Shown here: positions 7,944 to 59,813 of the stretch, piece by piece
Layout of the letters: each line of letters starts with the position of its first letter
Position numbering within the stretch: position 1 is the stretch's first letter
Assembly: GCA_004570425.1 (NCBI GenBank)
Contig: SPQJ01000009.1
Coordinates: 1-64,000 of the forward strand
DNA from: Bacillus sp. AZ43
Lineage (GTDB): Bacteria > Actinomycetota > Actinomycetes > Mycobacteriales > Geodermatophilaceae
Length of the DNA: 64,000 bases
Reading direction: 5' to 3'
The notes under the pieces: model-generated
Seen by the model: the letters and a program-made list of their open reading frames with translations, nothing else
Database searches by the model: none
Told to the model about the DNA's origin: nothing
Made by a program: the position numbers and the translations under genes

Positions 7944-8902
7944 CGCTCACCACCGAGACGGCCGCCGGCGCCCCCGCCCTGGAGCGGGTGGTCACCGGCT
8001 ACCTGGACCACCTCACCGTCGAGCGCGGGCTCGCGGCCAACACCATCGCTTCCTACCGCCGCGACCTGCGGCGCTACACCGAGTACCTCGCCGCGGCCGG
8101 CGTGCGCGACCTGCGCGAGGTCGCCGGCTCCGACGTCTCCGGGTTCCTCGCGGCCCTGCGCGAGGGGGACGACGCCCACCCGCCGCTGTCGGCGACGTCG
8201 GCGGCGCGGGCCGTCGTCGCGGTCCGGGGGCTGCACCGCTTCGCGCTGCTCGACGGCCTCGTGCCCGACGACGTCGCGCACGAGGTCCGCCCCCCGGCGC
8301 CCGCGCGCCGGCTGCCCAAGGCGGTGCCGGTGGAGTCGGTCGTCGCCCTGATCGAGGCGGCCGGCTCGGTGGAGGGCCCGCGCGGGCTGCGCGACCGCGC
8401 CCTCCTGGAGCTGCTCTACGGGACCGGGGCCCGCATCTCCGAGGCCGTGGGGCTGGCCGTCGACGACCTCGACCGCGGCCAGTCGGTGGTGCGGCTGGCC
8501 GGCAAGGGTGGCAAGGAACGGGTGGTCCCCGTCGGCAGCTACGCGCTGCGCGCCGTCGAGGACTACCTGGTGCGCGCCCGGCCGGCGCTGGCCGCGAACG
8601 CCCGCGCCGGGGTCCGCGGCGGGCCGCTGTTCCTCAACGTGCGCGGCGGGGCGCTGTCGCGGCAGAGCGCGTGGGCGATCCTCCGCTCGGCCGCCGAGCG
8701 CGCGCACCTCGGCGGGGAGATCTCGCCGCACACGCTGCGGCACTCCTTCGCCACCCACCTGCTCGACGGCGGGGCCGACGTCCGCGTCGTCCAGGAGCTG
8801 CTCGGTCACGCGTCGGTGACGACGACGCAGGTCTACACGCTGGTCACCGTCGACCGGCTCCGCGAGGTCTGGGCGACCAGCCATCCGCGTGCGCTGACCT
8901 GA
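7940..8902 (+). CDS. xerD: Tyrosine recombinase XerD
   Basis: 320 residues; with XerC it resolves chromosome dimers at dif during division. The N-terminal SAM-like domain ([26 protein letters not shown]) is followed by the catalytic domain. Catalytic residues visible are Arg in [12 protein letters not shown], Lys in [12 protein letters not shown], HxxR in [12 protein letters not shown], His in [11 protein letters not shown], and Tyr in QVYTLV. No ATG or GTG is in frame near the expected start. CTG 7940 has GAGGAGG 7 nt upstream and overlaps the ald stop as CTGA; the first in-frame GTG (7988) would trim the N-terminus and lacks that site. A dif-like target lies 50 kb downstream at 58704. Confidence 0.93.
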
Positions 8903-10018: not shown

Positions 10019-10521
10019 CTCGCCGGCCCGTTCTGCCCGGTGCCTCGGAGCTGTTCCGCCGCACCGACTCGGCCCCCTCGGACACCGAGGTCACCGAGCT
10101 GCCCAGCCTGACCACGACCACCAGCTCGCCGGCGCTGCGCAGCGCCGCCGGGCGGCGTGACGAGGGGTCCGAGCAGCCGTCGGCCATGCCGCTCACCCTG
10201 GTCCCCGGCGGCGCCGCGGCCGCGGACGACGAGCTCGCCTCGTTCCGCGCCGCCGCCCCGCCCCTGCTCAAGCCCTCGGTGCCGACGCGCGGCCGTCCCG
10301 CCCGCCGGACCGAGCGCACCAAGCACGACGAGAAGATCACCGTCTACATCTCGGCCGACGAGCTCCTGGCCCTGGAGAGCGCCCGGCTGACCCTGCGCGG
10401 TCAGCACGGCGTGGCCGCCGACCGCGGCCGGATCGTCCGGGAGGCGATCTCGGTCCTGCTCGCCGACCTGGACGAGCGCGGTGACGAATCGATCCTGGTC
10501 CGTCGCCTCACGGGCCAGTGA
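10015..10521 (+). CDS. Putative ribbon-helix-helix-like partner of ParA
   Basis: 168 residues. The first 105 residues are low-complexity and probably disordered. The C-terminal 60 residues read KITVYISADELLALESAR, a gap, then GRIVREAISVLLADL. A short beta strand followed by two helices is the layout of a ribbon-helix-helix (CopG/ParG-like) DNA-binding domain. I infer this from pattern only. GTG 10015 overlaps the parA stop (GTGA), so the two are translationally coupled. In plasmid and some chromosomal systems a small RHH protein is the centromere-binding partner of ParA; such a role fits the context but is untested. No enzyme motif is seen. Confidence 0.65.
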   Translation: MTRRPVLPGASELFRRTDSAPSDTEVTELPSLTTTTSSPALRSAAGRRDEGSEQPSAMPLTLVPGGAAAADDELASFRAAAPPLLKPSVPTRGRPARRTERTKHDEKITVYISADELLALESARLTLRGQHGVAADRGRIVREAISVLLADLDERGDESILVRRLTGQ

Positions 10522-10533
10522 CGGAGAGGCGAA

Positions 10534-10539
10534 TACCCT
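10534..10539 (+). promoter_or_regulatory. -10-like box TACCCT for leaderless scpA
   Basis: TACCCT (TANNNT) ends exactly 7 nt before GTG 10547. The nearest purine-rich stretch, GGAGAGG at 10522-10528, is about 18 nt from the GTG and too far for a ribosome-binding site. Leaderless initiation is the simplest reading. Confidence 0.5.
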
Positions 10540-10546
10540 CGCGTCC

Positions 10547-11416
10547 GTGAGCAGCGAGAACGGCGCGGCACCGGAGGCCCCCCAGGCCGCCGATGCCGCG
10601 CCGTCGCGCTTCACCGTCCGGCTCACCAACTTCGAGGGCCCGTTCGACCTCCTGCTGCAGCTCATCGGCAAGCACAAGCTCGACGTCACCGAGATCGCGC
10701 TGTCGACGGTCACCGACGAGTTCATCGCCCACCTCAAGGCCCTCGGCGACGAGCTCGACCTCGACCAGGCCAGCGAGTTCCTGGTCGTCGCCTCCACCCT
10801 GCTCGACCTCAAGGCCGCCCGGCTCCTGCCGGCCGCCGAGGTGGACGACGAGGAGGACCTCGAGCTGCTCGAGGCGCGCGACCTGCTGTTCGCCCGGCTG
10901 CTGCAGTACAAGGCGTACAAGCAGGCCGCTGCGTTCCTGCGCGAACGCGAGGCGCAGGCGGCCCAGCGGTACGGCCGCTCCGCCGGGCTGGAGCCGCGGT
11001 TCGCCGACCTGGTGCCCGAGGTCTCCCTCGACCTCACCCCGGAGCAGTTCGCCGCCCTGGCCGCCCGCGCGCTGACCCCCAGGGCGCCGGAGGTCGTGAG
11101 CGTCTCGCACCTGCACGCGCCGCCGGTCAGCGTCTCCGAGCAGCTCCTGGCCGTCCGCAACCACCTCATCCGGTCGGGGACGGCGACCTTTCGCGCGCTG
11201 ACCGCCGACTGCGGGCACACCCTCGAGGTGGTGGCCCGGTTCCTGGCCCTGCTCGAGCTGTACCGGCAGCAGCGGGTGGTCTTCGAGCAGCTGACGCCGC
11301 TGGGGGAGCTGCACGTGCGCTGGACCGGCGGCACCGCCCCGGCCGGGCCGCAGGGCGACGACGTGGACGGCCCCGTCGAGGACGCGGCCGCTGATGTGGA
11401 CGAGGAGTACACGTGA
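10547..11416 (+). CDS. scpA: Segregation and condensation protein A (kleisin)
   Basis: 289 residues; kleisin that bridges the SMC head domains. The N-terminal signature FTVRLTNFEGPFDLLLQLIGKHKLDVTEIAL is diagnostic, followed by LDLDQASEFLVVASTLLDLKAARLLP. The C-terminal winged-helix part includes SGTATFRALTADCGHTLEVVARFLALLELYRQQ. The start was set at GTG 10547 from the leaderless promoter geometry. The N-terminal 18 residues are Ala/Pro-rich. The stop overlaps the scpB start by 4 nt (GTGA). It acts with scpB and an SMC encoded elsewhere. Confidence 0.95.
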   Translation: MSSENGAAPEAPQAADAAPSRFTVRLTNFEGPFDLLLQLIGKHKLDVTEIALSTVTDEFIAHLKALGDELDLDQASEFLVVASTLLDLKAARLLPAAEVDDEEDLELLEARDLLFARLLQYKAYKQAAAFLREREAQAAQRYGRSAGLEPRFADLVPEVSLDLTPEQFAALAARALTPRAPEVVSVSHLHAPPVSVSEQLLAVRNHLIRSGTATFRALTADCGHTLEVVARFLALLELYRQQRVVFEQLTPLGELHVRWTGGTAPAGPQGDDVDGPVEDAAADVDEEYT

Positions 11417-12288
11417 CCGAGCGGGGCGACGAGCAGGCGCCGTCGGAGGAGGAGCGCGCGCCCATCTCCTGGGAGGCGCTCGCCGCGGAGCTGGCGGCCA
11501 CCCGCGAGCTCGCCGAGCGGCAGGGCGACGACGACCCCGCCACCTGGGACGCCGTCGCGGCGGAGCTGGCGACACGGGTCGCCGAGACGCCGGTGGAGGC
11601 CCACCCGGAACCCGTCCCCGTGCCACCCACCCCGGACGAGGACGCCGAGCCCGAGGCGCCGCAGGACCCGACCCCGGCCGACGTCCCCGCGGGGGAGCCC
11701 CAGCCGGAGGAGCAGCCGGCCGAGCCGCTGGAGCTGCTCGACCCGGTCGAGCTGCAGGGCGGCCTGGAGGCACTGCTGTTCGTGATGGACGACCCGGTCG
11801 ACGAGCAGACGCTCGCCGGCGCGCTGCGCTGCCCGGTCGACCAGGTGCGGGAGGGCCTGGCCGCCCTCGCCGAGGACTACGACCGGCGCCGGGCCGGCCT
11901 GGTCCTGCGCCGGGTGGGGGAGGGGTGGCGGCTCTACACCCGGGAGGAGCACGCGCCCGTCGTCGAGCGGTACCTGGTCGACGGCCAGAAGAGCCGGCTG
12001 ACCCAGGCGGCGCTGGAGACCCTCGCCGTCATCGCCTACCGGCAACCGGTCACCCGGGCCCGCGTCTCCGCCATCCGCGGCGTCGGGGTGGACGGCGTCA
12101 TGCGCACGCTGATCACCCGCGGCCTGGTGCACGAGGTCGGTACCGACCCCGACAGCGGCGGCGGTCTCTACGCCACCACGCCGCTGTTCCTCGAGCGGCT
12201 CGGCCTGGAGAGCCTGGCGGAGCTGCCCGACCTCGCGCCGTTCCTGCCCGAGACCTCCGCGATGCTCGACGAGCACCCCGACGCCTGA
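11413..12288 (+). CDS. scpB: Segregation and condensation protein B
   Basis: 291 residues, longer than typical ScpB because of an acidic, Pro/Glu-rich N-terminal extension of about 110 residues. The conserved twin winged-helix core begins LQGGLEALLFVMDDPVDEQTLA. It continues through GWRLYTREEHAPVVERYL to LTQAALETLAVIAYRQPVTRARVSAIRGVGVDGVMRTL, a strong ScpB signature. It forms a dimer that binds ScpA. GTG 11413 overlaps the scpA stop. The gene ends directly against a dispersed repeat with a hairpin. Confidence 0.95.
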   Translation: MTERGDEQAPSEEERAPISWEALAAELAATRELAERQGDDDPATWDAVAAELATRVAETPVEAHPEPVPVPPTPDEDAEPEAPQDPTPADVPAGEPQPEEQPAEPLELLDPVELQGGLEALLFVMDDPVDEQTLAGALRCPVDQVREGLAALAEDYDRRRAGLVLRRVGEGWRLYTREEHAPVVERYLVDGQKSRLTQAALETLAVIAYRQPVTRARVSAIRGVGVDGVMRTLITRGLVHEVGTDPDSGGGLYATTPLFLERLGLESLAELPDLAPFLPETSAMLDEHPDA

Positions 12289-58328: not shown

Positions 58329-58517
58329 TCAGTTCCCGGGCTTCACGGCCTTGCCGCGCTCCCGGTCGGCGTCGTCGGCGTCGTAGGCGCCCGGTACGGC
58401 CTTCGCCCTGCCGTCGTCGCCGGGGGCGAGGGGACGGTCGGTCAGGTCGTCCGGCCCGGGGGAGGGCGTGCCGCCGGGCTCGTTCTTCTCGTCGGTGTCG
58501 GGGCGCTGCTCGGTCAT
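58329..58517 (-). CDS. Small hydrophilic protein, probably disordered
   Basis: 62 residues, rich in Asp, Glu, Pro and Gly (starting MTEQRPDTDEKNEPGG), without hydrophobic core or Cys. TAGCGG lies 6 nt before ATG 58517 on the minus strand, close to the leaderless pattern. Function unknown. Its stop is 1 nt from the LysE stop. It is the last gene before the dif region. Confidence 0.5.
   Translation of the reverse strand: MTEQRPDTDEKNEPGGTPSPGPDDLTDRPLAPGDDGRAKAVPGAYDADDADRERGKAVKPGN
58458..58464 (+). other. Last plus-strand GGGGGAG left of dif
   Basis: GGGGGAG pointing toward dif, 240 bp away, inside a gene read on the minus strand. The next copy, at 58953, is on the minus strand. Confidence 0.6.
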
Positions 58518-58703
58518 GAGGTGCCGCTACCCGGGACGCCACCGGCGAACGCCTCGCGTCGCACCAGTCCGGACCCAGCGGTCGACGACTCACCGTTATC
58601 CCCAACAGCGCACCACCCGGTCGGGTTGCGCGGCCGGTCCACGGACGACGGTTGCGGAGCGGAGGAGGCGTTCCGGTTGCCGAAGAGGCCACGGGCGACG
58701 ATG

Positions 58704-58731
58704 AGTTGACATAATGTCGATTATCGGCGCG
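58704..58731 (-). other. dif: dif site, XerCD chromosome dimer resolution site
   Basis: Read on the minus strand: XerC-side arm CGCGCCGATAA, centre TCGACA, XerD-side arm TTATGTCAACT. The 11-6-11 layout matches dif sites. The XerD arm differs from the E. coli TTATGTTAAAT at only two positions, and CCGATAAT...ACATTATGTCAA is the form I recall for actinobacterial dif sites. It lies in non-coding DNA, is AT-rich against a very GC-rich background, and sits where strand-biased GGGGGAG motifs flip. Confidence 0.88.
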
Positions 58732-58952
58732 AGCACCGGGGCGTCGAGAGGAGCTGCATCCGGCCCCGATCGCCGACGTGGCGGCCGCACCTGCGGGGGA
58801 CCCCGGGCGTCGGGTTCGTGGCGTTGCGGCCGACTGCGCGGTCGACCGCGCACGTCGCTGCGACACCGCGCGTTCGGGCACGTCCGCCGCGACTCGGTGG
58901 CGATCGCCGGCGTCCGGATGCTCCACCGCTGAACCCCCGTCCTCGTCACCGA

Positions 58953-58959
58953 CTCCCCC
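58953..58959 (-). other. First minus-strand GGGGGAG right of dif
   Basis: CTCCCCC on the plus strand, so GGGGGAG on the minus strand, pointing back toward dif 220 bp away. Further copies of the same orientation lie near 59050, 59746, 60229 and 60911. Confidence 0.6.
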
Positions 58960-59075
58960 ATGAGTTGATCTTGTTCCGTGTCGATCGAGATACGGGCTCG
59001 TCGCGTCGCCACTGGACCCGCCAGGCGCCCCGGATGGTGGTCGGCGCCGCTCCCCCTGGTCCGCCTACCCCTCGT

Positions 59076-59100
59076 TCATTACGTCACGGTGACGTAATGA
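59076..59100. promoter_or_regulatory. 25-bp perfect inverted repeat upstream of the lipoprotein gene
   Basis: TCATTACGTCA (59076-59086), CGG, TGACGTAATGA (59090-59100): 11-bp perfect arms. The AT-rich TTACGTCA core is typical of TetR- or MarR-type operators. It is centred 57 bp upstream of the TAGGGT -10 box of the lipoprotein gene, so an activator-like position is also possible. No T-run follows, so a terminator is less likely. Confidence 0.6.
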
Positions 59101-59144
59101 CGGTGATGTCGGTGGCTCGACGGGCGCCGACGGCTGGGCCTTCG

Positions 59145-59150
59145 TAGGGT
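59145..59150 (+). promoter_or_regulatory. -10-like box TAGGGT for the leaderless lipoprotein gene
   Basis: TAGGGT ends 6 nt before ATG 59157. The identical hexamer and spacing occur before the GNAT gene at 48873. Confidence 0.5.
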
Positions 59151-59156
59151 CGGGAC

Positions 59157-59396
59157 ATGCAGATCCGACGTCCGATCGCCGCACTGTTCACCGCTCTGGC
59201 GCTGTTCGGGGGCGGTGCCACCCTGACCGCGTGCGGCGACCCGACGACGCCGAACGAGGGAACCACGGACGACAGCGAGAACACCGGGGGCAGCGACGTG
59301 GACGAGGAGGAATCGGACCGCGAGAACCTGCCGGACAACAGCAACCAGGAGCCGAACGACGAGGACGACAGCGACGACCAGCAGGACCCGGACTGA
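59157..59396 (+). CDS. Small acidic lipoprotein
   Basis: 79 residues. Signal peptide MQIRRPIAALFTALALFGGG with lipobox LTAC (Cys26), then a short acidic, Asp/Glu/Asn-rich tail with no fold. After processing about 54 residues would be tethered outside the membrane. Function unknown. Leaderless start; a 25-bp inverted repeat lies upstream. Confidence 0.7.
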   Translation: MQIRRPIAALFTALALFGGGATLTACGDPTTPNEGTTDDSENTGGSDVDEEESDRENLPDNSNQEPNDEDDSDDQQDPD

Positions 59397-59402
59397 TCCG
59401 GC

Positions 59403-59813
59403 TCAGCCCGCGCTGCGCTCGTTGACCCACAGGCGGTCGAGCCGGCCGGCGGACCGCACGAGCTCGGCGACCTGGCGCTCCAGTTCGGCCTTGGTCGGCT
59501 TCTCCGTCAGCAGCGTCTGGGCGTCCTCCAGGGCGCAGCGCAGCTGGTACAGCCGGTCCTGCAGACCGTCGAGCTCGTTGCGCGACACCAGGACGACGTC
59601 ACCGGGCAGGCCGGCCTTCGCGGTGGCCGACCGCTGCTCGTAGGCCCGCTGCCGGCAGGCCTGCCCGCAGTAGAGCCGGGGCCGCCCCACCGAGCCCGCC
59701 GACGGGAGGACACGGCGGCACCAGCCGCACCGCCGCTGCTCGTCGCTCCCCCGGTTGGGGACCGGCGCGACGGGGGTCTGCGTCGCGGTGCCCGCTGCGT
59801 GTCGTTCTGCCAC
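59403..59813 (-). CDS. Zinc-finger protein of the RxYCxxxCRQRAYE type
   Basis: 136 residues. A zinc knuckle CGWCRRVLPSAGSVGRPR followed by LYCGQACRQRAYEQR gives four Cys in CxxC...CxxxC. A coiled-coil-like C-terminus (LQDRLYQLRCALEDAQTLL) follows. The CRQRAYE signature is common in actinobacterial small proteins of unknown role. GTG 59813 follows TACCGT (59827-59822, minus strand) by 8 nt, a leaderless start. Confidence 0.75.
   Translation of the reverse strand: MAERHAAGTATQTPVAPVPNRGSDEQRRCGWCRRVLPSAGSVGRPRLYCGQACRQRAYEQRSATAKAGLPGDVVLVSRNELDGLQDRLYQLRCALEDAQTLLTEKPTKAELERQVAELVRSAGRLDRLWVNERSAG

Follow-up and report, generated by a model that had tools for sequence, protein, structure and literature searches.

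A palindrome beside the dif site in Geodermatophilaceae and other Actinobacteria

A short palindrome accompanies the chromosomal dif site in Geodermatophilaceae and in several other groups of Actinobacteria, mainly on the flank next to the XerC arm. The association is sound at the sequence level and apparently undescribed; its mechanism is proposed here and would involve a dimeric protein. We found it in a window of 64,000 nucleotides (the whole stretch of DNA that was analysed, positions 1-64000 of the 107,402-base contig C78), which belongs to a genome of 4,064,414 bases (4.06 Mb) in 78 contigs. The 28-bp sequence at 58704-58731 is almost certainly the chromosomal dif site of this genome, at which FtsK and XerCD would convert chromosome dimers into monomers. 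That is, the dif site itself is ordinary, a new example of a known element. For the palindrome beside it, we found no description in PMC, outside of which most subscription journals lie, and one may be in print. Likewise, judged by title, none of the PMC papers listed for dif sites and palindromes in mycobacteria deals with such an element, and none that combines XerC, accessory sequences and PepA in Mycobacterium was found there.

The dif site and its setting

The site had been called dif in a first-pass annotation, based on an 11-6-11 XerC/XerD layout around a TCGACA centre on the minus strand and on its position in the longest non-coding gap. The window sequence confirms the layout (Table 1). 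The stretch of the window that goes longest with no codon-phase GC signal (58770-59220) adjoins dif and agrees with the claimed gap, as judged by a composition proxy with a threshold that we set and not by annotation. When up to 3 of its 28 bases may differ, the complete 28-mer has a single match in the whole genome, i.e. no better dif match exists elsewhere in the genome at this threshold. Its 21-bp core CGATAANNNNNATTATGTCAA, again with up to 3 mismatches, matched once in the window (versus 0 of 100 shuffles) and at three places in the genome; uniqueness therefore requires the full 28 bp.

Table 1. Features of the dif locus and of chromosome-segregation genes in the window
Feature	Position	Strand	Details
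xerD	8000..8893	+	TIGR02225, 330.7 bits (cut-off 329.6)
scpA	10481-11416	+	scpA-scpB span 10481..12288
scpB	11413-12288	+	scpA-scpB span 10481..12288
Short ORF	58329..58517	-	62 aa, XerD side of dif
Nearest GGGGGAG, XerD side	58458..58464	+	last plus-strand copy, points to dif
dif site	58704..58731	-	CGCGCCGATAATCGACATTATGTCAACT; 11-6-11 layout (window sequence)
XerD arm of dif	58704-58714	-	TTATGTCAACT, 11 bp
dif centre	58715-58720	-	TCGACA, 6 bp
XerC arm of dif	58721-58731	-	CGCGCCGATAA, 11 bp
Family-conserved block	58951..58973	-	CAAGATCAACTCATGGGGGAGTC; in dif-palindrome spacer
Nearest GGGGGAG, XerC side	58953..58959	-	first minus-strand copy, points to dif
dif-linked palindrome	59077..59099		CATTACGTCACGGTGACGTAATG; ~370 bp from dif centre to centre, XerC side
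Palindrome core	59082-59094		CGTCACnGTGACG; within 59077..59099
Small lipoprotein-like gene	59157..59396	+	79 aa; starts 57 bp beyond palindrome

Among 112 genomes of the family (Geodermatophilaceae), 108 contain the dif core (≤2 mismatches), mostly in a single copy, while a backward control pattern was found in none of the 112. In the other four genomes (G037, G072, G073 and G081), no dif was detected even when 3 mismatches were allowed in a somewhat longer core; G072 and G073, both of genus g7 and 98% and 92% complete, contain neither a recognisable dif nor the palindrome. Positions 3-11 of dif are invariant across 30 family loci, our own included, although only positions 3-5 of these played no part in selecting the loci, and conservation drops at the edges of the 28 bp. 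Since our own assembly comprises 78 contigs, we turned to relatives for the ori-ter distance and for skew along the whole chromosome. In all 12 single-contig relatives dif is located opposite the origin, with a dnaA-dif distance of 0.46-0.54 (0.464-0.535) of the chromosome, eight of the chromosome lengths being rounded to 100 kb. This agrees with the proposed position of the terminus. In one genome, the dnaA match (G031:C1:3231009-3231493) came in two overlapping pieces, perhaps due to a sequencing error.

Alignment to an actinobacterial dif gave a similar picture. Our site and the dif predicted for Frankia alni (Kono et al. 2011, PMC3025954) agree at 24 of 28 positions and differ at positions 2, 13, 14 and 27, and both are alike in the 28-bp 11-6-11 format with one copy per chromosome. 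According to that paper, actinobacterial dif sites were then without any experimental confirmation. The native Xer system of M. smegmatis excises dif-flanked cassettes (PMC4789726), as do those of other mycobacteria (PMC5364183).

A strand-biased heptamer had also been claimed to turn near dif, with no motif letters given. GGGGGAG, identified by fit, meets this description: a 495-bp gap around dif is free of copies, and on our 107-kb contig 67 copies point toward dif versus 1 away from it, with the best switch interval at 58458-58953. The same polarity was observed in G022, a 3.70 Mb genome in one contig that was sampled in 38 stretches of 20 kb (248 toward versus 23 away; best switch -877 to +240 bp from dif, 148/161 agreeing), and also in 80 named loci (349:6) and the 30 family loci (108:6). 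In G022 the motif becomes denser toward dif, with 24 copies in 120 kb at distances above 1.3 Mb versus 80 copies in 200 kb at distances up to 100 kb. The polarity is not an effect of gene strand, because copies in genes read against replication still point to dif (13/14 in our genome and 44/47 in G022, with the coding strand inferred from codon-phase GC). TCAAGGA was rejected as a second polar motif: all 16 copies on C78 point toward dif, but they track coding direction (15/16 on C78 and 48/49 of the G022 copies with a called strand follow the coding strand).

The octamer (T/C)GGGGGAG is described as an actinobacterial architecture imparting sequence with leading-strand bias, and it served to find dif in C. 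aurimucosum (PMC2830990). A C. ulcerans paper, too, locates dif by this motif (PMC3164646), and both Corynebacterium papers credit it to Hendrickson and Lawrence 2006. Compared with the architecture imparting sequences of the former paper (PMC2830990), the G-rich motif is the same, but here its switch is narrowed to 495 bp and a coding effect is excluded. Like KOPS, GGGGGAG is a strand-biased motif that turns at dif.

The check by GC skew gave a mixed result. In G022 the sign changes around dif, with positive skew in 13 of the 19 stretches to its left and negative skew in 16 of the 19 to its right. However, the lasting shift lies off dif: from ~60 kb past it onward, all but one of the sampled stretches are negative.

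The presence of xerD, parA, scpA and scpB in the same ~51 kb had been taken as a further argument for the terminus. The genes are indeed there, a ParA-type ATPase gene within ~51 kb of dif included, but as evidence for a terminus they are weak, because the distance between the best xerD match and dif is loose (46-553 kb in 13 family genomes, our own included). The genome further encodes an FtsK_gamma domain (87 bits) and an xerC candidate, the sole protein scanned with the XerC model, whose 297 bits are under the curated cut-off of 335.15. XerD, FtsK-gamma and, as a below-cut-off candidate, XerC are thus present together, as expected for a dif system. In E. coli FtsK, residues R1300, E1303 and E1306 contribute to KOPS recognition (PMC2680272); the corresponding positions of our FtsK, according to our own mapping on the alignment, are R, D and E. 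We infer that this FtsK reads GGGGGAG. It would load on copies pointing to dif from both arms and pump terminus DNA to dif, where its gamma domain would activate XerD and then XerC, if the order of events is that of E. coli. A crossover by XerCD bound at dif would then turn the dimeric chromosome into two monomers.

Uniqueness, family-wide conservation, a mid-chromosome position in complete relatives and the switch of motif polarity all uphold the initial call of dif. The same observations, in particular the single-copy sites at mid-chromosome in 12 relatives, argue against the alternative that the 28 bp are a chance or mobile-element Xer site other than dif, which is hardly credible and in favour of which we found nothing.

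Position and sequence of the palindrome

The palindrome has the consensus WTnCGTCACnGTGACGnAW, which was matched (≤1 mismatch) in 97 of the 108 family genomes. At least one copy is located within 4 kb of dif in 51 of the 52 family genomes with listed places; these 52 contain 67 copies near dif and 8 far from it, and of the near copies, the XerC side has 51 and the XerD side 16. Of the 16 genomes of the genus, 9 contain the palindrome (≤3 mismatches), each at a single place on the XerC side, ~370-680 bp away from dif.

For a comparison of the two sides of dif, we used 66 named loci which were chosen by dif alone and required 500 bp on both sides. Allowing one mismatch, the core occurs within 500 bp in 33 loci on the XerC side and in none on the XerD side, versus 5 of 1,320 block-shuffled XerC flanks. 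The exact core gave 18, 0 and 0 of 1,320, respectively. When 12 loci fetched by means of the palindrome were added, the counts were 44/78 on the XerC side, 0/78 on the XerD side and 8/1,560 in shuffles. As the loci are mutually related, none of these counts represents independent events. Density in the named loci falls off in the same manner: with C/G tolerated at one position, the core has 35 occurrences in the first 500 bp on the XerC side (38.3 kb in all), none on the XerD side (38.6 kb) and one in ~396 kb beyond 1.5 kb, while one mismatch gave 44 (XerC side, 0-500 bp), 1 (XerD side) and 14 (beyond 1.5 kb).

The bare core is less specific. In 13 genomes it has 1-7 copies each, and in 11 of the 13 one lies within ~1 kb of dif; in G047 the exact core is absent that near dif and a one-mismatch copy is found ~440 bp off. 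Away from dif the exact core occurs at 32 places in the 13 genomes, versus 1 for the backward control, so it is not a terminus-only sequence. The two classes differ at the core centre, with A/T in 11 of 14 near-dif copies versus 2 of 32 far copies, and the C/G-centred far copies may reflect common codon strings.

In a logo of 109 XerC-side palindromes, the core reaches 1.1-2 bits per base apart from its centre, a conservation that is fixed by the selection of the sites. At a distance of 8-9 bases from the centre, the T/A positions have 0.7-1.4 bits; these played no part in the selection, save in loci fetched with the 19-mer. Complementarity beyond the core exceeds that of shuffles at 8-14 bases from the centre. 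The case for a hairpin or RNA is nevertheless weak, given that the aligned sequences are related to one another, the core sequence is fixed and no T-run comes after the palindrome in the window. An Rfam search of the dif locus returned one match, with an E value of 0.7 and 22.9 bits versus a gathering score of 50.

The spacer between dif and the palindrome contains a further conserved block. Its CAAGATC motif, often followed by GGGGGAG, was detected at -500..-10 (XerC side) in 28 of the 30 family loci, near -255; in the other stretches scanned (+30..+500, and 900-1480 bp away to both sides) it occurs in none of the 30. The block CAAGATCAAC (58951-58973 of the window, minus strand, near -255) is repeated at 15-bp spacing in loci L029 and L026, and its TCAACTCAT part resembles the end of the XerD arm plus flank. 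ORFs related to the 79-aa lipoprotein-like gene, which starts beyond the palindrome in the window, stand beside dif in other family loci, too; Pfam returned no match for this protein or for the 62-aa ORF. Convergent with the lipoprotein gene, a conserved cysteine-rich protein (CGWC..YCGQACRQRAYEQR) is encoded at 59403-59750 on the minus strand beside dif in the family, with no Pfam match above cut-off.

Occurrence in Actinobacteria and on plasmids

To follow the palindrome across Actinobacteria, 83 named loci were searched up to 1 kb on the XerC side; each of them had been selected for an exact match to the dif core with TCGACA at the centre. It is present in 42 of the 49 loci from 11 genera: Modestobacter (15/16), Blastococcus, Klenkia, Goekera, Actinokineospora (4/4), Mycolicibacter, Nocardia (6/9), Rhodococcus (7/8), Rhodococcoides, Aldersonia and Antrihabitans (1/3). 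The same search gave no palindrome in 3 Pseudonocardia-type loci and 31 other named loci (Frankia, Arthrobacter, Sinomonas and similar), and it was absent from the Frankia and Micrococcus-type loci seen. A match on the XerD side was found in 3 of the 83. In Actinokineospora the palindrome is located just 61-71 bp from dif in all four loci; in two of them (L050 and L066, palindrome 61 bp from dif) an ORF that by eye resembles a tyrosine recombinase adjoins dif.

In a reverse approach, the palindrome was sought genome-wide in 37 genomes at the order and class level and dif was looked for afterwards. In a second family of the same GTDB order (f2), the distance between palindrome and dif is 89-540 bp in 15 of 17 genomes, all 15 with the palindrome on the XerC side; the other two (G309 and G314) contain the palindrome with no dif-like site in the surrounding 20 kb. 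Six of the remaining 20 genomes had a palindrome match, and none of the six fetched loci had a dif within 1.5 kb. A palindrome near dif was found in neither of the two f3 genomes, and genera g5, g6 and g7 of the family itself (4, 1 and 4 genomes) gave no palindrome match in 9 genomes.

Palindromes are also carried by two plasmid-like mycobacterial contigs, G145:C2 and G398:C1. Here, fits of origin and terminus are exploratory and easily over-read, as both ends were free and the points few. On G145:C2, all 30 copies of GGGGGAG fit two arms with a terminus at 80.7-108.3 kb, which GGGGGA (67/75) narrows to ~102.6-108.3 kb, and palindromes at 106.8 and 107.7 kb stand beside a weak (13/17) dif-like site. 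On G398:C1, one palindrome lies ~50 bp from a 15/17 dif-like site at 28.6 kb and two more are near a GGGGGAG switch at 125-130 kb (28/30); the best switch of GGGGGA at 182-185 kb (56/75) runs counter to a terminus at 125-130 kb. On both contigs (L229-L230, G398:C1 124.5-125.5 kb; L233, G145:C2 106.8-107.7 kb), palindromes flank toxin-antitoxin-like gene pairs.

A plasmid recombinase was found on 60 plasmids. Among 10 named plasmids with this recombinase, the palindrome occurs within 4 kb in two (one with the exact core, one with two one-mismatch copies), neither with a dif-like site in that stretch; a link between recombinase and palindrome was thus rejected as a general rule. Directly downstream of a plasmid recombinase gene in locus L261 of M. 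rufum (~5040) lies a dif-like site whose XerD core is perfect.

Possible roles of the palindrome

The palindrome looks like the site of a dimeric protein. We tentatively favour that it is a partner element of dif, the docking site of a terminus protein that could be a MatP/matS counterpart in function or could regulate either FtsK-XerCD or the unloading of SMC at dif. The palindrome at 59077-59099 belongs to the dif locus and would be the place where such a dimer acts at the terminus, and the element would extend to Geodermatophilaceae, Nocardia, Rhodococcus, mycobacteria and Actinokineospora, usually with one or two copies and mainly on the XerC side. The bare-core copies away from dif, being in excess of the backward control, reduce the odds of a terminus protein, but it is still the leading reading. 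In Enterobacteria, the matS site of the MatP/matS system, GTGACRNYGTCAC, is repeated over the Ter region. Our element is similar as a terminus-linked palindrome of GTCAC/GTGAC half-sites. However, its half-sites face the other way, and where matS is spread over Ter in many copies, our element has one or two near dif. No occurrence of the matS motif was found in C78 or in the G022 samples. To our knowledge, no Ter-specific protein is known in the group that includes Rhodococcus, Nocardia and mycobacteria. A palindrome on a mainly fixed side of dif would provide a direct handle for finding one, and it makes terminus organisation testable in bacteria in whose samples (C78 and G022) no matS was found. 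A large mycobacterial plasmid may have copies at its terminus, too; if true, this would extend the partner element to other replicons.

The main rival explains the palindrome as an operator or activator site of the ordinary kind, which serves the promoter of the lipoprotein gene and is near dif just by inherited gene order; we consider this doubtful. In many Geodermatophilaceae loci the palindrome indeed stands shortly before this gene (57 bp in our own), CCTACGAAC from the stretch between palindrome and gene in our sequence recurs near dif in 21 of the 30 family loci, and the 32 bare-core copies away from dif in 13 genomes would suit an operator as well. But where gene and dif are apart, the palindrome stays with dif: it is still ~320 bp from dif in Modestobacter RYN_176, whose gene is 3.2 kb away, and likewise in Klenkia, where the gene is ~870 bp away. 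In addition, the loci inspected in Rhodococcus, Nocardia, Mycolicibacter and Actinokineospora have unrelated neighbours, and the adjacent gene on the palindrome side in R. wratislaviensis ends toward dif. That is, as far as sequence can tell, the palindrome follows dif and not a gene.

The plasmid Xer sites cer and psi have accessory DNA on the XerC side. Our palindrome shares this position (33 of 66 loci versus none on the XerD side within 500 bp), and its distance of 61-71 bp in the four Actinokineospora loci and of ~50 bp from the 15/17 dif-like site on G398:C1 would be in line with an accessory sequence of Xer recombination that imposes product selectivity. We nevertheless regard this role as unlikely. 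In contrast to cer and psi, the palindrome is chromosomal and mostly 200-400 bp away from dif, sometimes more than 1 kb, and within the family the XerD side accounts for 16 of the 67 near copies. Furthermore, the 10 named plasmids with an XerC-like recombinase have no palindrome beside a dif-like site. The dif cassettes of M. smegmatis recombine off the terminus (PMC4789726), their exact flanks being unchecked.

Compared to the terminus-protein reading that we favour, it is very improbable that the palindromes are the ends of inserted gene cassettes which landed near dif: many loci have one near copy and no cassette, and the core is far more conserved than its flanks, even though palindrome pairs flank a toxin-antitoxin pair on each of the two plasmid-like contigs and, in some loci of Nocardia and Mycolicibacter, single genes in the vicinity of dif. 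A similar toxin-antitoxin-like pair was observed near dif in G362.
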